From the NCBI GenBank assembly GCA_028871595.1, contig JAGWMT010000024.1:1-21115 (forward strand): a DNA stretch of 21,115 nucleotides. Reading direction: 5' to 3'. The first letter of the stretch is position 1. The number at the start of each line of letters is the position of its first letter. Under the pieces are notes generated by a model that worked only from the letters and a program-made list of their open reading frames with translations, did not search any database and had not been told where the DNA came from. The position numbers and the translations under genes were made by a program. Of this stretch, positions 1 to 21,115 are shown piece by piece. Source of the DNA: Elusimicrobiota bacterium. Lineage in GTDB: Bacteria > Elusimicrobiota > Elusimicrobia > UBA1565 > UBA9628.

Positions 1-529
1 TCGCCTGATAGGCGTCGGCGGGGGCGGTGTGGGAGATCAGGTAGAAGCCGCCCTTGCAGGGGATCATCGCCGCGTCGGCCCGGTTCATGTAGAGGATCTT
101 GTGCCCCTGCGGCGCGCGCTGGGGAACCTCGTAGTGGACCTCGTACACCATCCGCCCGTCCACGCTGCGCGAGGTCAGCGCGCTGGGGTTGCGGTCGGTG
201 AGCTTGAGCATGGTCAGGAATTCATCGGGCGTCTTGATCTTGTCGCCCACGGCCGGATAGCGGCTCACCCCGATGGAGGCGGTGCCGCGCCGGGCTCCGG
301 CGGCCGGGCCGAAGAACATCACCAAAGGTCCGCCGCTGTAATCGTCCTCGACCGTCTTCCACTCGGCCGGGGCGCGGCACGAGAAGTCCCCGGCCTTCCC
401 GTCGAAATCGATCAAACGCTCGCCGGCGACGACGGCTTTCGTGGGCACGAATTCTTCCTTCGCGGCTTCAGGTGCCTTGCGGCAGGCGGACGCCAGGACG
501 ACCAGAGCGGCGAGCAGGAACTTCATCAT
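1..529 (-). CDS. putative lipoprotein, 3' end cut by window edge
   Basis: I read 176 codons before the left edge. The protein begins MMKFLLAALVVLASAC, a short basic start, a hydrophobic stretch and a cysteine at residue 16 preceded by small residues. This is a loose lipobox, so a lipid-anchored envelope protein is likely. Past the cysteine is a short charged linker and then a compact domain of unknown type. It contains a second cysteine near residue 51, in a segment reading DFSCRAPAEWK, and another near 158; these two could pair as a disulfide in an exported protein. The pattern of an early hydrophobic-aromatic core followed by GPLVMFFGP resembles small PsbP/Mog1-like lipoproteins, but this is only a resemblance. 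The start at 529 is chosen because its ATG overlaps the stop of the upstream zincin gene (ATGA), implying translational coupling. A second in-frame ATG follows directly at 526. No function is assigned. Confidence 0.75.
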   Translation of the reverse strand, partial: MMKFLLAALVVLASACRKAPEAAKEEFVPTKAVVAGERLIDFDGKAGDFSCRAPAEWKTVEDDYSGGPLVMFFGPAAGARRGTASIGVSRYPAVGDKIKTPDEFLTMLKLTDRNPSALTSRSVDGRMVYEVHYEVPQRAPQGHKILYMNRADAAMIPCKGGFYLISHTAPADAYQA

Positions 530-2037
530 TGTTTTCGTCCTTTCACCGCGCGGACTTTCGCCAGGAGCTTCGGGTCTCCCGATTGGACCGCGAACGCCTC
601 GGCCTTCTGTATGGCCACGTCGAAGTCCACCGGGCCCGAGGAAGCCAAGGCGACGGCCAGGTAGTGCTCGGCCAGCACCGCGGGCGCGTCCGCGGCGGCG
701 GCGGGAGCGTCCGTGCCGGCCAGGCGGGCCAGGCGCTGGCGCTCGGCGTCGCCGACGGCGCGCAATTCCCGCTGGGCGCGCGTCATGGCGGCCAAATCCT
801 GGGCCTTCGCGGTCTGCTCGTCGCGGGTGTTCGTCGCGCGGCGCCGCGCCGCTGCCAGCCGGGCGCGCTGGATTTCCTCCGCCGTGGCGATGTCCATGGC
901 GTTGACGGCGTCGGCCTGGTAGGTCTGGCGCAGCTGCTCCACCCAGGCGTCATGGCCGGAGACCATCTGCTTGTAGTCCTGCAGCTCGAAGTCGTCCACC
1001 GCCGCGGCGGGGTCGCGCTTGAGCAGGGAGTGGATGTAAAGGTTCTTCGTCGTCCACGCCTCGATCTCGTAATCCGTCAGCATCGCCTGCGGCAAGGTTC
1101 CCCGCGACATCTCCGTCATGACCGGGTCGCGCCGGTCCTGCCAGGCATGGGTGAGCTCGTGCACCAGGACCACGTCGTTGGAGGAGGCGAAGCCGGCCAC
1201 GGCCTCCGGGTGCTTGTTCAGATAGTCGATCAAGGCGGCGCGCGAGGCCAGAGACTGGGCCAAGGCCCCGCGGTCCTTGGCCGGGACCCCGTCGGCGATG
1301 GCCGACAGCAGCAGCTGCCGGTCCACCACCAAGGCGCGGCGCCGGTAGTCGTAGACCGCCGCGGCGCCGGTCAGGTCCTCGACCACGACGGGCGGAAGGT
1401 CGGGCTTGCCGTCCGGGCCGTTCAGCCGCGCCAGGACCTTGCGGCCGAAGGGGTCGGCTCCGATGCGCTTGGCCGCGGCGGCGCGCAACGAGTCCCCGAG
1501 CGCCTGCTCGGCGGGATCGAAGTACGGCAGTGGCACGCGCGGTCCGGGAGCCCCGGCGCGGACCGGAAGGGCGGCTTCGCGGCGGTCGTCCGCGGTTCGC
1601 GTGCCGTCGAAATAGGCCGCGATCTTCTCCAGGTTCGCGTCGGACAGGGAGCGCAGGCCGTTGAGGTCCTTGTTGGCCAAGACCGCCCGGGCGACGTCGC
1701 CGGGAAGGTCGGCCGCCAGGGCGCGGGCGGCGTCCATGTCCGGCGGGGTCTTGGACAGGGCCAGGTTGAGGCGCTCGAGCGCCAGGCGCTGGGTGTTGAG
1801 ATTGATGCCGGTGAGCGCCGCCGTCAGTTGATCGGGCGTCAGCGCCGCGTGGGTCTTGGGGTCCAGCACGCGCCCGTCGCTTTCCAGGCGGAATCCGGCC
1901 CCGCGCAAGGCGTCCTGCATGCCGTCCGTCAGGCGCGACTGCCTCCAGTCCGCGGCGGCCGGGGCGGGGGGCGTCGCCGCCGCCGCCCGGAGGGACGGGG
2001 CCGTGAGAAGCAGCGCGGCGAGGAGCAGGGACCGCAT
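526..2037 (-). CDS. secreted zincin-type metallopeptidase-like protein (HELTH)
   Basis: This is a 503-residue protein with a clear signal peptide (MRSLLLAALLLTAPSLRA, cleavage probably after the Ala-rich run near residue 18-21). The central part holds VLVHELTHAWQ with H293, E294 and H297, the HExxH zinc site of zincins. About 27-29 residues later comes DYEIEAW, whose E324 or E326 is a good candidate third ligand, as in gluzincins. Before the motif is about 270 residues of helical, Ala/Leu/Asp-rich sequence. After it is a charged helical segment rich in Arg, Ala and Glu (about 385-450). I do not recognise the family beyond the zinc motif. The protein is presumably active outside the cytoplasm. 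It heads a two-gene unit with the lipoprotein at 529-1 and has its own promoter at 2053-2081. The leader would be very short and I see no Shine-Dalgarno before the ATG; the signal peptide supports this start. Confidence 0.85.
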   Translation of the reverse strand: MRSLLLAALLLTAPSLRAAAATPPAPAAADWRQSRLTDGMQDALRGAGFRLESDGRVLDPKTHAALTPDQLTAALTGINLNTQRLALERLNLALSKTPPDMDAARALAADLPGDVARAVLANKDLNGLRSLSDANLEKIAAYFDGTRTADDRREAALPVRAGAPGPRVPLPYFDPAEQALGDSLRAAAAKRIGADPFGRKVLARLNGPDGKPDLPPVVVEDLTGAAAVYDYRRRALVVDRQLLLSAIADGVPAKDRGALAQSLASRAALIDYLNKHPEAVAGFASSNDVVLVHELTHAWQDRRDPVMTEMSRGTLPQAMLTDYEIEAWTTKNLYIHSLLKRDPAAAVDDFELQDYKQMVSGHDAWVEQLRQTYQADAVNAMDIATAEEIQRARLAAARRRATNTRDEQTAKAQDLAAMTRAQRELRAVGDAERQRLARLAGTDAPAAAADAPAVLAEHYLAVALASSGPVDFDVAIQKAEAFAVQSGDPKLLAKVRAVKGRKQ

Positions 2038-6485: not shown

Positions 6486-8063
6486 CTATTTCAGGCGCCA
6501 GGGGAGCCAGGACTTCTCGTAAATCCCGGAACGGAGGACGGTTCCCCCATCGAGCACCGCGTAATCGTAAGACCCCTCGAAGGCCAGCGCCCCGGTCTCG
6601 GCCTCCGGATCGGCGGCGGTATAGATCAGGAGTCCGCGCGTCGCGTCGAACGGATTGAGCGCCGTGGTGGCGAGGGCCAGCTTGCCGGTGAATTCCAGTG
6701 TTTTCGCGTCTCCGCCGCGCGGGTCGAAAGTGATCCGGCGGGGCCCGATGTGCGCCGGGAGCTTGAGGCGGGCGTAGTTCCGGGCCAGCCATGCGTTATC
6801 GTCCGTCGTGCCGAAGACGATCAAGGTGTTGCCCTTCAAATCCGCGGACTCCGCCTTCTCGCCCGACATCCGGCGCGCGTCCGGCCAACGGCGGGCCTGA
6901 AGGGCGTCCACCGCGGCCGACAGCGCGGGCGACGGCTTCGAAGGCAGGATCAGGATCGCCGGCCCTCGCGCCTCGAGAACGGCGGCGACGCCGCCGTGGA
7001 ACGGGGGAGCGGGGAACTTGGGAGCGGACTCGGCAAGCGCGTCGAGCAAACGCGGATAGAAATCCGCCAAAGTTCCCCTGTTCTTCCGCCCTTCGTACTC
7101 CTTGAGCCGTTCGATCAGCGGAGCCAGATACGGCATCCCGAAATTGCGGTACTTCGAGGGCCAGCGCCCGGCCATCTCGCGGCCCTTGCTGCCGCCGTCG
7201 AGCGTCAGCAGGCGCGCGCCCACGGCGTAGGCCGTCTGGCGCTGGACGCACGCGTACCAGGTCGTCTCGCAGGTTCCGGCGATCGGCGTGAAGAGGGCGT
7301 TCAGGGTTTCGATGCGGGCGGCGTACGGTTTTCCCGCCTCGTTGAGGTACACGCGGGCCAGTTCCTCCCAAAGGCCGCCCAGGCGGGTGACCAGGCGATA
7401 GCCGAACTTCCCTTTATAGACCTCCGGTCCGTACACGCTGGTCAGCCGGGGGACCCCGTCGGGATCCGTGCTGGGAATCGCGTCGGCCATGACGGGTTCG
7501 GCGAACGGGGAGATGATCACGGTGTAGCGCGTCTTCACCGGAACGCCCAGATATTTTTCCAGCGCCGGGACGATGTTCAACGCGGCGGCCTGGCGCCGGA
7601 CGTCCTCGACCATGGGCCGGCGCATTTCCTCCGTCCGGGAGTAGAAATCCCCGAAGGAAGTGACCTTGGCGAAATCCGCCAGCATCGCTCGGAATTCCTC
7701 CGCGGAGACGGCCCCGCCCAACTGGGAGGCCGTGCCCTCCGGGATCGGCCCCGCCAACTCCGGCGGCGGCCCCAGATGGAGCACCAGATCGTAGAAAGTC
7801 AGATAGCTCACGCCTTGGCGGGTGAGCTCGGCATACCGGTCCACGACGGGATGACCGGCGAACGGGGCGTAATAGGCGGCCGCCGCGCGGTCGTAGGGGA
7901 TGTCATGCCGGAAGAAGCCGGCGAAGCGCTGATCCGCATGGGCCAAGAGCTGGACCATGGCCAGGAGCTCCAGGCGCGGATCGGTCCGGATTTCGGGGTA
8001 GACGGGAGCGGCCGCGCGCGCCGTCGCGGCGAGTAAAGCCAGGATCGCGGCCAGTTTCAACAC
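6486..8063 (-). CDS. secreted DUF4932-like protein without HExxH
   Basis: A 525-residue protein starting with GTG at 8063 (an in-frame TTG follows at 8060). The start codons lead into a signal peptide ending ATARAAA. The region after it (PRLELLAMVQLLA, then GHPVVDRYAEL, then LHLGPPPEL) matches my memory of the DUF4932 layout. Those proteins look like zinc peptidases with an HExxH followed by a conserved Asn segment. Here the equivalent stretch is GGLWEELARVYLNE, near W232-R237: a glutamate is kept but both histidines are gone, so metal-dependent catalysis is unlikely unless other residues serve. The C-terminal third (about 360-525) is a separate alpha/beta-like region containing ILILPSKPS and NTLIVFGTTDDNAWLARNY, which resembles the tail found on some exported alpha/beta-hydrolase-like proteins. 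The gene follows the 8709-8074 gene after 10 bases, so it is probably cotranscribed. The family assignment is from memory. Confidence 0.8.
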   Translation of the reverse strand: MLKLAAILALLAATARAAAPVYPEIRTDPRLELLAMVQLLAHADQRFAGFFRHDIPYDRAAAAYYAPFAGHPVVDRYAELTRQGVSYLTFYDLVLHLGPPPELAGPIPEGTASQLGGAVSAEEFRAMLADFAKVTSFGDFYSRTEEMRRPMVEDVRRQAAALNIVPALEKYLGVPVKTRYTVIISPFAEPVMADAIPSTDPDGVPRLTSVYGPEVYKGKFGYRLVTRLGGLWEELARVYLNEAGKPYAARIETLNALFTPIAGTCETTWYACVQRQTAYAVGARLLTLDGGSKGREMAGRWPSKYRNFGMPYLAPLIERLKEYEGRKNRGTLADFYPRLLDALAESAPKFPAPPFHGGVAAVLEARGPAILILPSKPSPALSAAVDALQARRWPDARRMSGEKAESADLKGNTLIVFGTTDDNAWLARNYARLKLPAHIGPRRITFDPRGGDAKTLEFTGKLALATTALNPFDATRGLLIYTAADPEAETGALAFEGSYDYAVLDGGTVLRSGIYEKSWLPWRLK

Positions 8064-15732: not shown

Positions 15733-15891
15733 ATGAAGAGAACCTCCGCCGCCAACGGACGCCGTCACGGAGTCCGCTCGAAAACCGCCTTGGAGACGCG
15801 CGGCGTGAAGACCGTGCTCACCTTCGAGAGCCGCGCCCGGGTTTATTGCTGGTCCACGGACCGCGGGGTCCGTCCCGTCATCAAGCATTGA
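15733..15891 (+). CDS. small basic protein of unknown function, 52 residues
   Basis: A short gene with AGGAG (15724-15728) 4 bases before its ATG. The product has 13 Arg/Lys residues in 52, a single cysteine (near VYCWSTDRG) and no hydrophobic segment, so it is a soluble, strongly basic peptide. It starts MKRTSAANGRRHGVRSK and ends VRPVIKH. I know no family for it. The stop codon overlaps a TTG that is the best start for the next gene (TTGA, 15888-15891), so even if the peptide has no function of its own, its translation should deliver ribosomes to that start. It could be a coupling leader peptide, a nucleic-acid-binding peptide, or a real small protein linked to export; the sequence does not decide. 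Confidence 0.6.
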   Translation: MKRTSAANGRRHGVRSKTALETRGVKTVLTFESRARVYCWSTDRGVRPVIKH

Positions 15892-17021
15892 AGAGGCTTC
15901 GGCCGCCTTTGGCGGCCTTGCTTTTGACTCTTGCCGCGACGTCCGCGCGCGCCAATCCCAGCCTTTCCGATGACTTCGGGGCCATGTCGCAATGGCTGAG
16001 TCACGAGATGGCGCAGGGTCTGGCGTTCAACGCGGGCGAAACGTTCGACCCGCCCAAGGAAGTGCAAGGCTACTATCTCCAGCCGGACATCTCGTTGGGC
16101 GTCGGCAAGATCCCGTTCGACAAGCGGGAATTCCCGGCGCTGCAGACGCAGGCCCTGCAGGACGAGGGCGGCTCCGACCTGTTCCCCAGTTCCACGCTGT
16201 TCCCGAACCTGGCCCTCCATCTGCGCATGGGCCTGCCTTGGCGCGGCGACGCCTACGTCCGCTTCGCCGACGCGACCACTCCGCCCAACTACAAGATCTC
16301 TCCCACCATGACCGCGAAGGTCCAGACCAACTCCTTCGGCTTCGGCATCCGGCAGCATTTCTTCGGCCAGGACGATTGGCCGACCTTGACGGTCGGGGCG
16401 CACTTCAATCACGTCCGCGGCTACACAAACTTGAAGGGTAAGTTCACCATCAACAGCAACGGCTTGACGCAGGACGACGGCTTCACGGGCAACATCCGGT
16501 GGAACATCAACAGCTACGCCCTGACGGCCATCCTGTCGCACAGCTACGGATCCTGGACGCCTTTCGCCGGGATGGGCTACAACTACACGACCGGTTCGGT
16601 CAGCGCGTCGCTGGATCTGCAGGCGTCGTCGGTCAATACGCGCGTCTTCGGCGCCGGCAGCGACCGTCCGGAAAAGAGCCAGGGGCGCGAGATCGTGGGC
16701 GTCTCCTATGACCGGCCCACGTGGAGCTTCTTCGCCAACGGCGAGCTCAAGGCCCTGGGCCAGCTCCAGTACCGCAGCTACATCGTGGACGCCGGGTTCG
16801 CCCTGCCGTTCGATATCGGCCGAGGGCCGAAGCTGATCTACCGGCGGCTGCCCAACGGCGCGACGCCGAAGTCCCTCCGACCCAAGCGGGTGATGATCGA
16901 CGAAGACGCCCCGGCGCCGGCCGAAGAACCCGCGCCGGCCCCGAAGCCGAAGCCGAAGCCGAAGCCGCGCCGCCGCGCGCGTCCGGAAAGCGATCCCGGC
17001 GACATGATTTTCTTGAAATGA
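15888..17021 (+). CDS. outer-membrane beta-barrel-like protein with Pro/Lys-rich tail
   Basis: A 377-residue protein when started at TTG 15888. This start gives a textbook signal peptide, MKRLRPPLAALLLTLAATSA ending in RA before NPSLSDD, and overlaps the stop of the 52-residue gene by 4 bases (TTGA). An ATG exists in frame at 15621 but would add about 90 residues of Arg-rich sequence read through the promoter region and the small gene, so I reject it. Residues about 60-305 alternate short amphipathic strands rich in Tyr, Phe, Gly and Asn (for example SFGFGIRQHFFG, SYALTAILSHSYG, TPFAGMGYNYTTG, QYRSYIVDAGFALPF), as in a small outer-membrane barrel. The last 45 residues are a flexible tail of Pro, Ala and Lys with KPKPKPKP followed by an Arg-rich stretch, ending MIFLK. 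Its stop overlaps the ATG of the protease gene. The barrel may anchor or pass the protease; this is inference. Confidence 0.8.
   Translation: MKRLRPPLAALLLTLAATSARANPSLSDDFGAMSQWLSHEMAQGLAFNAGETFDPPKEVQGYYLQPDISLGVGKIPFDKREFPALQTQALQDEGGSDLFPSSTLFPNLALHLRMGLPWRGDAYVRFADATTPPNYKISPTMTAKVQTNSFGFGIRQHFFGQDDWPTLTVGAHFNHVRGYTNLKGKFTINSNGLTQDDGFTGNIRWNINSYALTAILSHSYGSWTPFAGMGYNYTTGSVSASLDLQASSVNTRVFGAGSDRPEKSQGREIVGVSYDRPTWSFFANGELKALGQLQYRSYIVDAGFALPFDIGRGPKLIYRRLPNGATPKSLRPKRVMIDEDAPAPAEEPAPAPKPKPKPKPRRRARPESDPGDMIFLK
16941..16964 (+). repeat. hexanucleotide repeat (CCGAAG x4) coding Pro-Lys
   Basis: Four tandem copies of CCGAAG encode the Pro-Lys run in the tail of the barrel-like protein. Unit length is a multiple of three, so copy-number change would lengthen or shorten the tail without a frameshift. 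Confidence 0.85.
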
Positions 17022-20000
17022 AGAAATACGGCACGACGACGCGATGGATCGCCTCCGCGCTCAGCGCGGCGCTGGCGCTGTCGTCGTTCGGGCCGGCGGC
17101 CGCGTCCGCCGCCGCCCAGGAGTTCGTCGCGGGCGCCGCCGCGCGCACCGGCGGGAGCCCGGCGCTGGTCGCCGCGCCGTCGATCGGCGTTTCGCCGTTG
17201 CCGACTTTGCCGGCCTCCGCGGCCGCCCCGCTGGGCGTTTCCGTCCCCGCGCCGTCGCCCGGACCTCTCGCCGCGCCCGTCGCTCTGACTCCGGCGCTCC
17301 CGCTCGCGGCGGCTCCGCCGGCGGCCGTTCTTCCCGTCGCGGCCGCGCCGGCGGCGCACGCCGCCTCGGCCGCCTCCGCCGTCGCCTCGTTCGCCGAGCG
17401 CGTCGCGCGACCGCTGGCCGACCCGCGCGTGAACGCCGCCGCGCATTTGGACCGGATATACGACGCGTCGGCCGCGGGCTCCTCCGCTCCGGACTTCGGG
17501 GGGGTCTTGGGCGCGGCGTCGGACGGACCTTCGGGCCTGACGCCGGCCGCCGCCCGCAATGGCGCGCGCGCGCCGATCGTCGCCGAGGCGCTCCCGCCGC
17601 GCGCGGAGAGAGAAGAGCGCTCCGCGCGCTATCCACTGGTCCTGGCGCTCGTCGCCGGCGGGGCCTGGGCGGTCTTGAAGGCGGTCGGGTTGGGCGCTCT
17701 TCACTTCACCGCGGCCGCGTCGGCCCCGCACGCGGCGGTCTCCGCCGTGGTCGGCGTCGCGGCCGCGTCGGCGCTGTTCGCCGCGGGCGCCTTCGCGCTG
17801 AACGCCGTGGTGGACGCGGCCGCGTTCGCGGCCGCGCTTTGGCGCGGCAAAGGCGTCACCGACGAGCAGTTCCGCGCCTTCGTCCGTCGCGAGGTCGCCG
17901 AAGGCCGCCTGGACGGCAACGCCGCGGCCTTGCTCAAGCCGTACCGGCCGCAGGGACGCTTCACGGACATGACCTTCGCGTTCGCGGCGCGCGGTTCCAT
18001 CTGGATCCGCCCCGAGCTGGCCGCGTCGCCGGCGATCTTCCGGCTGGTCATGGTCCACGAGCTCCAGCATCTGAAGGCGTCCTCGACCCGGGGCCCTCCG
18101 CGCCGGGGACTGCGCGGGCTGCTGTCGGGACTGCTGTCGGAAAGCCGGGCCCGCGCCGCGGAGCTGCGCGGCACGCGGGGCCTCAAGGAGCTCAAGGTCC
18201 CCGCGCTGGAGCGCGCGATGCGCCAGGCGCAGATCTCCCTGAAGCTGGCGCGGCCCTACGAGATCCTGGTGCTTAATCCGGACACGAAGGAGCTTTCGGA
18301 TCCGAAGCTGTACGAGGGCCTCTCCAACGGCGCCGCGAAGGTCACCTCACTGGAGGGCGCCGAGCCCGCCAAGGCGCTGAGCGCGGCGGCCGGCAAGGAC
18401 TACCAGGCCGTGGTGTTGGGCGCGCCGGCCTCGCTCCTGCCGGGTCCGGCCACGAAGGACCACCTCCGCCTGGAGACCGCCCTGAAGCAGTTGGACAGCC
18501 TCTACGTCCTGGCGACCCGGCTGGTCCCGCGAGCGGCCTCTTTCACCCCGGACAGCGCCGACGCCCGCGCCTACGCCGATCTGGCCGACAAGGCCGCGCG
18601 CCTGCGCGCCGCGGGCTCGCCGCGCAAGGCGATGGCCTCCTTCGAGAACGACGTCCGCCGGTTGTGGCGGCAGATCGCCGCGGCGAAATTGAAAGGGGTC
18701 GGCGTCTCGGACTTGGTGGACGACCTGTACGGCGGCCTGCGCGACCGCGGCACGGCGTTTCTGTCCTTCGCGCCCGAGGATCACGGCGTCGTCACCTGGG
18801 AGAGGCTGCTGCGCTACTGGGAGGCGGAGGACGGCGGCCAGTTCCGCGTGACGCGGGTGGACTTGGAGAACGGCGGCCATATTCTCATCCTGCGGAAGGT
18901 GGAGGCCCGCGTGGGACTTTGGCTGAGGCCGATCGCCGGCGGCCGCATCGAGTCCTCCGCCGCCCGCGCCGACGAGACCGAGGAGGGCCGCGCCGCCGCG
19001 CGCGCGTCGCTGACCGCGGCCGGTTACGCCGAGCAATTGAAGCTGTTCGACTCCATGGACGTGTCCGTGCGCCACGTGTTCGGCGCCGACGTGGGGCGCC
19101 AGGAAATCTACATCACCGTCCCGCGCCGCCACGCCGCCGCGATCCGCAAGTACGTCACCGCGCGGGCGGAGTCGGCCATCGGCAGTTCGAAGGCGGACTT
19201 CCGCACCCATTTGGTGGAATCCTCCGGCATCCACGAGGTTCCGCCCGTTTGGCAGGCGGGCATCACCGGCAACGGCGGCCGGATCATGTGGATCGACACC
19301 GGCGCGGACGCCACGCACGAGGATTTCGCGGGCCGCTTGGACGTCATCGACATGGTCAACGAAGGCCCCGAGGACTGGGTGGGCCACGGCACGCACGTGG
19401 CGGGCATCTCGATCTCCGGCGGCGCGCCGTTCCTGGGCATGGCGAAGGGCGCTTCGGGCACGATGGCCAAGGTGTTCTCGCGCGAGGGCCAGGGCGCTTC
19501 CGACGGCGAGATCATGGGCTCGGCCGCCATCGCGCTCAAGAACGGCTACGACGTGATCAGCCTCAGCCTCGGCAGCCGCGGCGGCTCCTCGGACAACCTG
19601 GCCGAGTTTTTCTCCCAGCTGACCCACCAGAAGAATTCCAACGGCGACTACCCGATCGTCTCCGCCAGCGCCGGGAACTCCGGCCCGTTCGACAAAACCT
19701 TGAGCCAGCCCTCCGCCGGCGTGGACGTGCTGGCCGTGGCCGCGGCGGCGAAGAGCCTGGACGACGGCAAGCCGGAAATCGCCTTCTACAGCTCCGTGGG
19801 CCCGGACGTGGACCGTCGCTACTCGGTCAAACGCCTGCGCCTGAAGCCGGAGATCACCGGCATCGGCGGAGACGTGACCACTCCGCCGGGCTCCAGCAAC
19901 GTCTATGAGTTCGGCGTGTACTCGGCGAAGTCGAAGGATTCCCAGCGCTCGTCGTCCGATCTCCCGGACGGGCGCCATACCGGCATGTCGGGCACCTCGA

Positions 20001-21115
20001 TGTCGAACCCGGCCGTCGCCGCGATCGCCCTGTTGGTGCGGATGGCGATGAAGGGCGTGGGCAAGACCGATCCCTTCGTCGCGGAAAACCTGCCGTTCGT
20101 CGTGAAGGCCGTGCTGATGCGCTCGGCGAAGGATTTGGAGGCGCCGCTGTGGTTCCAGGGCGCGGGTTTGGTGGACGCCTGGGCCGCGGTCAAGCTGGTC
20201 GGCGCGGCGATCGGCCGGGATTTCGGCGCCGGCCTGAAGCGCTTCCTGCGCCTGGCCGCCGGTCCGCCCGCCGAGGGCTGGGATTGGGTCGTCCGACTGA
20301 AGGCCGTCGCGGACGCCGAGGACCGGGTCTTCTCGCCCACCGAGGTTCCCCGGGCTCCCGCCGCGGCGGAGCCGCAGGCCGACGAGTCGGCCCAGGGCTC
20401 CGAGGAGGAGCCGCACGAGGACGTGGAAACACCGGAGCCCGCTCCGACCGGGAACGCCGCCGCGGCCGAGGCCGCGAAGCGCTTCGCCGCGGCGCGCGAC
20501 CGCGAGGCGCCGGGCCTGATCGCCGCGCTGAAGGACCCGGTGTGGCTGGTGCGTCAGCGCGCCGCGTTCGCGCTGATGAACCTGCGCGCGTCGTCCGCGG
20601 CTCTGGCCCTCTCCGATGCCGCGTTGAACGACCCCGACGCGCGGGTGCGGCAGACCGCCCTTCTGGCGCTGGCCGAGATTCCGACGCACGCCGTGGACGT
20701 CCTTTTGCAGAAGGCGACGGCGGACCCGCGCTGGGACGTGGGCGTGTACGCCGCCTACGCGCTGGCGCGGCGCGGCGACCGGAGCGGCGCCGCGCGCATC
20801 GTCGCCGAGCTCTCCAGCCCGGACAAGCGCGCCCGCTACGCCTCCTCCTGGCTGGCCGGTCAGTTGGGCATTCAGGCGACCGCCGCCGAGGCGGAGGCGC
20901 TGTCGGCCCGCGTGAAGGACCGCGCCGAGCGGGGCAACATCCGGCACCTGGCCACCGCCGCGCTCTCGAACCTGGCCGACGCGTCGCCCGAGGCGATGAG
21001 CGACCGCGTCGTGACCGACCTGCTGGAGGCGGCGGGCCCGGACAACATCGCGCTGACGCGCACCATCGCCAAATTCTTTCCGGTGGCCGTCAACGACCGC
21101 GGCTTCGTCGTACGC
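17018..21115 (+). CDS. large exported protein: zincin motif, subtilisin (S8) domain, HEAT-like repeats; 3' end beyond window
   Basis: The frame stays open for 1366 codons to the right edge. The start ATG overlaps the barrel gene stop (ATGA). Order of parts: signal peptide (MKKYGTTTRWIASALSAALA, on to about 33); Ala/Pro-rich low-complexity stretch to about 190; two hydrophobic segments (about 205-225 and 235-262); then FRLVMVHELQHLKAS with H347, E348 and H351, a zincin HExxH, with SESRARAAEL about 25 residues on as a possible third ligand; a region of unknown type (about 390-740) whose end resembles a subtilisin propeptide; an S8 domain with D760 (WIDTGAD), H790 (GHGTHVAGI), N887 (SAGNSG) and S994 (GTSMSNP); an acidic Pro/Glu linker (about 1105-1145); and HEAT-like helical repeats from about 1146 (DPVWLVRQRAAFALMNL, DPDARVRQTALLALAEI). 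The serine protease triad is complete. The zincin part may be active or structural. Action in the periplasm or outside is expected. Confidence 0.9.
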   Translation, partial: MKKYGTTTRWIASALSAALALSSFGPAAASAAAQEFVAGAAARTGGSPALVAAPSIGVSPLPTLPASAAAPLGVSVPAPSPGPLAAPVALTPALPLAAAPPAAVLPVAAAPAAHAASAASAVASFAERVARPLADPRVNAAAHLDRIYDASAAGSSAPDFGGVLGAASDGPSGLTPAAARNGARAPIVAEALPPRAEREERSARYPLVLALVAGGAWAVLKAVGLGALHFTAAASAPHAAVSAVVGVAAASALFAAGAFALNAVVDAAAFAAALWRGKGVTDEQFRAFVRREVAEGRLDGNAAALLKPYRPQGRFTDMTFAFAARGSIWIRPELAASPAIFRLVMVHELQHLKASSTRGPPRRGLRGLLSGLLSESRARAAELRGTRGLKELKVPALERAMRQAQISLKLARPYEILVLNPDTKELSDPKLYEGLSNGAAKVTSLEGAEPAKALSAAAGKDYQAVVLGAPASLLPGPATKDHLRLETALKQLDSLYVLATRLVPRAASFTPDSADARAYADLADKAARLRAAGSPRKAMASFENDVRRLWRQIAAAKLKGVGVSDLVDDLYGGLRDRGTAFLSFAPEDHGVVTWERLLRYWEAEDGGQFRVTRVDLENGGHILILRKVEARVGLWLRPIAGGRIESSAARADETEEGRAAARASLTAAGYAEQLKLFDSMDVSVRHVFGADVGRQEIYITVPRRHAAAIRKYVTARAESAIGSSKADFRTHLVESSGIHEVPPVWQAGITGNGGRIMWIDTGADATHEDFAGRLDVIDMVNEGPEDWVGHGTHVAGISISGGAPFLGMAKGASGTMAKVFSREGQGASDGEIMGSAAIALKNGYDVISLSLGSRGGSSDNLAEFFSQLTHQKNSNGDYPIVSASAGNSGPFDKTLSQPSAGVDVLAVAAAAKSLDDGKPEIAFYSSVGPDVDRRYSVKRLRLKPEITGIGGDVTTPPGSSNVYEFGVYSAKSKDSQRSSSDLPDGRHTGMSGTSMSNPAVAAIALLVRMAMKGVGKTDPFVAENLPFVVKAVLMRSAKDLEAPLWFQGAGLVDAWAAVKLVGAAIGRDFGAGLKRFLRLAAGPPAEGWDWVVRLKAVADAEDRVFSPTEVPRAPAAAEPQADESAQGSEEEPHEDVETPEPAPTGNAAAAEAAKRFAAARDREAPGLIAALKDPVWLVRQRAAFALMNLRASSAALALSDAALNDPDARVRQTALLALAEIPTHAVDVLLQKATADPRWDVGVYAAYALARRGDRSGAARIVAELSSPDKRARYASSWLAGQLGIQATAAEAEALSARVKDRAERGNIRHLATAALSNLADASPEAMSDRVVTDLLEAAGPDNIALTRTIAKFFPVAVNDRGFVVR

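Follow-up and report, generated by a model that had tools for sequence, protein, structure and literature searches.

We analysed a 21,115-nucleotide stretch of DNA from an Elusimicrobiota bacterium (contig JAGWMT010000024.1, positions 1 to 21,115; hereafter the window), in which an open reading frame on the forward strand (17018..21115) starts with the ATG at 17018, comprises 1366 codons and is still open at the window edge. With confidence a little above even, we judge its product to be an exported, membrane-anchored multi-domain protease that combines a gluzincin, a self-cleaving subtilase and a scaffold and would serve the breakdown of external polymers. This arrangement of a predicted membrane zincin, a self-inhibited subtilisin and helical repeats lies outside any standard family, and we did not find the architecture described in the listed abstracts of open-licence PMC papers on Elusimicrobia proteases and giant proteins, minigluzincins, membrane metallopeptidases, protease fusions or CspBA.

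Pfam models scoring above cutoff on the frame, searched whole and in pieces, were those of S8 and HEAT only (Table 1). Peptidase_S8 (PF00082) matched residues 758-1049 at 8e-31 (107.9 bits against a gathering cutoff of 21.8), and HEAT_2 (PF13646) matched at 2.8e-10, with its best stretch at residues 1165-1230 (40.8 bits against 27.7). A separate Pfam search of residues 1-200 gave no match; this part begins like a signal peptide, and the protein is probably exported. The original prediction, made from the DNA letters alone, had placed on one polypeptide a HELQH site behind two hydrophobic segments, a complete S8 set (D760, H790, N887 and S994) and a HEAT-like array reaching the window edge. All three were recovered at the residues named, and their order is conserved in relatives, with both protease sites kept even in P0062 at 34-35% identity. 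Membrane insertion of the two hydrophobic stretches is predicted from hydropathy only; both exceeded a hydropathy of 1.5 in 46 of the 67 rows measured, the first often being weaker.

Table 1. Features of the multi-protease chain and of the gene upstream (positions in the window; residues of the chain)
Feature	Position	Strand	Basis or remark
Multi-protease chain	17018..21115	+	1366 aa, no stop up to the edge; closest relative P0002 has 1838 aa
Signal-peptide-like N-terminus, residues 1-33	17018..17116	+	KK, R, hydrophobic core, ASAAAQ; by eye from sequence
Ala/Pro-rich low-complexity linker, residues 34-200	17117..17617	+	Translation
Two hydrophobic helices, residues 205-228 and 236-275	17630..17842	+	Hydropathy; helical in both structure models
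Zincin core, residues about 285-405 (strands, active-site helix, glutamate helix)	17870..18232	+	Model
HELQH, residues 347-351	18056..18070	+	Motif scan and conservation
E375, proposed third zinc ligand	18140..18142	+	Conservation and modelled helix
Middle alpha/beta region, residues 409-629	18242..18904	+	Model; Pfam search without match
I9-type propeptide region ahead of S8, residues about 630-727	18905..19198	+	Model
Proposed autocleavage region at propeptide/S8 junction, residues 716-738	19163..19231	+	Low pLDDT; cleavage inferred
Peptidase S8 domain, residues 734-1065 (D760, H790, N887, S994)	19217..20212	+	Pfam, motif, model
HEAT repeats, residues 1165 to edge	20510..21115	+	HEAT_2 2.1e-13 on piece
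DUF6588 gene upstream	15876..17021	+	PF20230 1.5e-9, 37.9 bits against 27

In the S8 domain of 64 family proteins, window counted, the Asp was present in 61, the His in 63, the Asn in 61 and the Ser in 61; in the exceptions the residue lies outside a fragment, save for one gap at the Asp (P0060). Ahead of the S8 domain the structure model contains an I9-type propeptide, and the predicted local distance difference test score (pLDDT) falls below 50 at model positions 522-525 and 533-544, that is, residues 716-719 and 727-738. The S8 protease is probably made as a zymogen behind this modelled propeptide, and because it follows the propeptide, autocleavage of the zymogen near residues 716-738 is the likeliest mechanism. 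The triad, the oxyanion Asn and the order and fold of propeptide and catalytic domain are those of pro-subtilisins (Tk-SP, 3afg; pro-subtilisin E, 3whi), from which the window chain differs in what surrounds this unit: hydrophobic helices and a zincin come before it and HEAT repeats behind it, with a further subtilase-like domain in relatives.

An HExxH motif occurred in ~1% of 5000 shuffles of residues 1-760 and by itself is therefore modest evidence, but conservation ruled out a chance motif. Of the 64 proteins, 53 have His at both 347 and 351; six of the remaining 11 do not extend to the site and five lack it, including P0060, whose sequence begins within S8. Across the rows that were judged, H-E-H was intact in 71 of 78. 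The proposed third ligand, E375, is invariant in alignments A1 and A5 and Asp in P0044, and the gap between HExxH and this Glu is 22-27 residues (23 in 50 of 70 rows). Of about 206 columns in the zincin region of 34 sequences, 11 are invariant, among them those of the catalytic E348 and of all three proposed ligands, and the motif reads RPEL..P..fr.vl.HEL.H......RGPP...E..AR..E. In the structure model of residues 200-412 (m5853b46b3d78; pLDDT 91.1, predicted template modelling score 0.83), HELQH lies on a zincin helix and E375 on the next one (model positions 165-183). A Glu near 374-380 had been suggested as completing a zinc site, and E375 is a conserved candidate, its ligand status being assigned by position only.

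Comparison with known metalloproteases was less clear. No metalloprotease scored above the Pfam cutoff on pieces of the frame, and in 17 rows scanned M78, M48 and YgjP stayed under their curated cutoffs, with best E-values of 0.021 (M78, 2 of 17 rows), 0.081 (M48, one row) and 0.25 (YgjP, one row; 11.7 bits against 26 required). Foldseek of the modelled zincin against the Protein Data Bank gave no match at E 0.001; the weak fold matches pointed in the direction of minimal gluzincins, Wss1 being the top zincin row. The sequence profile of the zincin, compared with solved structures, returned two matches (E 0.06 and 0.13), neither of them a protease, and a search for stand-alone zincins with a 541-amino-acid piece found four proteins among the 7995 best word matches scored, all of them family members. 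The zincin is likeliest a minimal gluzincin, HExxH-x22-27-E, with a putative zinc site at H347, H351 and E375. Minigluzincins and membrane gluzincins (selecase, jannalysin, SprT-like proteins, BlaR1 M56, M48) likewise have the HExxH helix, a Glu in the next helix and a short core behind hydrophobic helices; the window zincin differs in falling below all Pfam cutoffs, in its own motif and in its fusion to S8. In Wss1 the third zinc ligand is a His (PMC5557861), in contrast to the Glu proposed here.

The protein search, limited to 0.55-1.75 times the query length, gave 65 matches: the window protein itself, 62 relatives belonging to the family (E <1e-130), and P0064 and P0065, which share only S8 with it. 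P0066, an additional partial member, came from a separate search with the 541-amino-acid zincin-containing piece. The closest relative, P0002, shares 90% identity with the query across 91% of its length. Because of the length limit, forms of 2700 amino acids are known from loci and not from the protein search. Wherever the organism of a family protein is named, it belongs to Elusimicrobia or Elusimicrobiota; the source names are S8 or subtilisin family peptidase, hypothetical protein and HEAT repeat protein, and P0048 is named a glycogen debranching enzyme. Named genome contigs yielded at least 79 loci, L001-L015 belonging to the family and L016-L079 being similar around S8 only; the titles of the former read Elusimicrobia or Elusimicrobiota in 14 cases and 'bacterium' alone for L008. 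Each of 11 genomes searched contained one full-length copy, and a match at E 1e-60 occurred in 30 of the 294 genomes sampled from the phylum. A defence library gave no match for P0001 and a generic 'subtilase' model for P0046, and the VIA list does not exclude families outside that list. To date, the predicted multi-domain protease is known from a part of the Elusimicrobiota alone. L144:971-5599 (reverse strand), from a genome of 1.6 Mb, is a remote relative whose single frame combines a HEIIH zincin with S8 and HEAT.

The HEAT array is not the end of the protein, an option ruled out by P0002-P0004 (1826-1838 amino acids), which continue past it. In relatives that are long enough, a second subtilase-like domain follows. 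The complete set of Asp, His, Asn and Ser in this domain occurs in 11 of the 64 proteins, and 13 of the 64 stop before the Ser position; with loci included, the site was intact in 15 tree rows and scored lacking in 58. The 58 include P0016 and P0040, which show gaps only and probably end early, and P0052, which retains the Ser without the His. All 55 decayed rows tested matched a profile of the intact form at E <1e-10, with Ala or Gly in place of the Ser and the first confident profile position at 85-125, so that the Asp (position 52) is outside all 55 matches and the His (89) outside 52. The alignment shows no His at the His position; the letters found at the Asp in decayed members are alignment accidents, for which the profile comparison is the better test. 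Judged from these residues, the second domain is intact in one clade and decayed elsewhere. The underlying tree is a quick one with long branches flagged; it had 82 rows (74 different, window included, some proteins being identical to locus genes) and left out 22 of 45 locus genes, as fragments or duplicates, and 5 of 64 proteins. Changes counted on it are rough: six for the zincin, one for the second subtilase and 10 for the glycoside hydrolase (GH) state.

The stop codon of the upstream DUF6588 gene overlaps the ATG of the protease gene (ATGA at 17018-17021). Of 35 loci with the protease gene (29 distinct), 26 (23 distinct) have a DUF6588 relative upstream in the same orientation; 26 distinct loci include upstream DNA, and the relative is present in 23 of them. 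Among the six distinct loci without it, L003, L006 and L015 have no upstream DNA, L009 has ~0.4 kb of upstream DNA, and L011 and L111 have kilobases. Pfam classes DUF6588 as of unknown function, and the copy in L012 falls under the Pfam cutoff; the protein is a probable outer-membrane beta-barrel. GH77 and GDE_C occur in 12 of the 29 distinct loci, in the frame of the proteases in seven (L001, L002, L005, L008, L110, L119, L120) and in another frame in five (L011, L112, L115, L118, L015), two of which (L011, L115) have a signal-like start on the separate GH gene. In L002:9995-18118 the protease chain runs on into GH77 and amylo-1,6-glucosidase as a single 2708-amino-acid frame, with Pfam matches to GDE_C at 8.5e-86 and to GH77 at 2e-29; the latter covers only profile positions 1-224 of 465, making this GH77 a putative enzyme. 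L009 and further relatives have an alpha-amylase-like end, and P0002-P0006, the proteins closest to the window, have no GH extension.

Because the debranching enzymes form part of the chain in some genomes and are encoded separately elsewhere, we keep a tentative alternative, which we regard as unlikely: the exported chain, with its zincin, subtilase, pseudo-subtilase and, in several relatives, GH77 and amylo-1,6-glucosidase, would be a polyprotein that its own subtilase cuts into separate working enzymes, fused and split forms being interchangeable.

H-E-H was missing in seven of the 78 rows judged. P0040, P0041 and P0049 have lost the hydrophobic helices together with the entire zincin and keep signal, middle domain and S8; this joint removal suggests that helices and zincin may work as one unit. 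In P0057, L104 and L106 the zincin motif has decayed, the frame of L106 being without any H[ED]xxH; S8 persists in P0057, L104 and L106. Conversely, L009 and L013 retain the zincin with Gly in place of the S8 Asp, and L106, with the same replacement, has lost both. In L094 a neighbouring frame encodes most of the zincin; L118 and L094 come from one genome, on a 3.8 Mb contig, where most of the zincin and the remaining chain lie in different frames.

The original prediction had proposed a self-activating two-protease machine. The self-activation that fits the anatomy is ordinary zymogen autocleavage of S8 behind an I9-type propeptide, rather than a cut of one protease by the other. Mutual activation, in which one protease cuts the propeptide of the other or frees it from the membrane, is consistent with two sites on one chain, the propeptide junction between them and the retention of both sites in most rows judged. 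However, the zincin module or motif was lost independently in P0040, P0041, P0049, P0057, L104 and L106, and L009 and L013 lost the S8 Asp yet kept the zincin. These separate losses are evidence against obligatory mutual activation, which we consider improbable, and indicate from sequence that the two proteases are not strictly interdependent. Homologues that keep S8 without a conserved HExxH, named beforehand as evidence against a two-protease machine, exist as a minority (P0040, P0041, P0049, P0057, L104 and L106, the last having also lost the S8 Asp), and HExxH is kept in most.

Some genomes of the phylum encode a second fusion, an M50 membrane metalloprotease joined to S8 (L146:519-3743 and L147:540-4031; in L146, S8 at 7.8e-27 and M50 at 1.7e-11). 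It resembles the window chain in this joining and in a signal-like start, and differs in having M50 instead of a gluzincin and no HEAT match; its frames have 1075 and 1164 amino acids. Relatives occur in 25 of 294 genomes, 24 of which also carry the zincin-S8-HEAT family, and in 18 of the 25 the match starts at query position 390 or lower and so takes in M50 sequence. This co-occurrence could favour sequential regulated proteolysis, in which a periplasmic cut by the subtilase precedes a cut by the zincin at the membrane, as in site-1/site-2 pairs, but it may reflect shared ancestry only. Moreover, the zincin core is predicted beside the hydrophobic helices and not within them, and no evident substrate candidate was found in the ten window genes scanned, other loci being annotated for DUF6588 and glycoside hydrolases only; we assign this scheme a low probability as well. 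Least probable is a zincin that is an inactive structural remnant beside a working S8: decay or deletion in some relatives and weak structural matches would fit, but the invariance of E348 and the three proposed ligands in 34 sequences is unexpected for a remnant.

We give most weight to ordinary S8 autocleavage as the maturation step, above mutual activation and two-step regulated proteolysis. The chain would be exported by its N-terminus, and a minimal gluzincin, anchored by the two hydrophobic helices, would face the periplasm. On folding, the subtilase probably cuts its own chain near the propeptide junction, which would leave a membrane zinc-protease piece and free a soluble subtilase-HEAT piece. 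Substrates or partners are probably bound by the HEAT repeats and by the second, usually decayed subtilase-like domain of the relatives. Alongside the DUF6588 protein encoded upstream and, in many relatives, enzymes that debranch glycogen, the chain would most likely serve the breakdown of external polymers. A degradative machine at the surface or in the periplasm is suggested because export signal, zincin, zymogen, scaffold and pseudo-enzyme adjoin, at a conserved location, a probable outer-membrane protein and glycan enzymes.

A chain of partly similar build is CspBA of Clostridioides difficile, in which an active subtilase and a pseudo-subtilase are joined and cut apart between the domains by YabG (PMC12880746). 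The relatives resemble it in a second subtilase domain without catalytic residues, the window ending before that part; CspBA differs in being cut by another protease and in serving spore germination. CspBA is not known to contain a zincin or HEAT repeats.

Elsewhere in the window, a 503-amino-acid protein (529-2037, reverse strand) has a signal-like start and HELTH and gave no match in a Pfam scan, and a DUF4932 protein (E 7.5e-13) is encoded at 6489-8063 on the reverse strand. In other genomes of the phylum we noted frames of 5908 to 17755 amino acids (L140, L141, L142 and L143), all four of which show at least two HExxH sites in the portion retrieved and resemble the zincin profile weakly; L141, the one scanned, had no Pfam metalloprotease match.

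That a single exported chain keeps two unrelated catalytic mechanisms throughout a deep lineage provides a natural test of whether bacteria use polyprotein-style maturation. Ready comparisons are offered by the clades with intact and decayed second subtilases and by fused and separate debranching enzymes. Elusimicrobiota are reported to encode many huge proteins whose role is poorly known (PMC11573180). The present family, though its members are shorter than the 5000-amino-acid limit of that study, would offer a first biochemical handle on the long exported chains of Elusimicrobiota.
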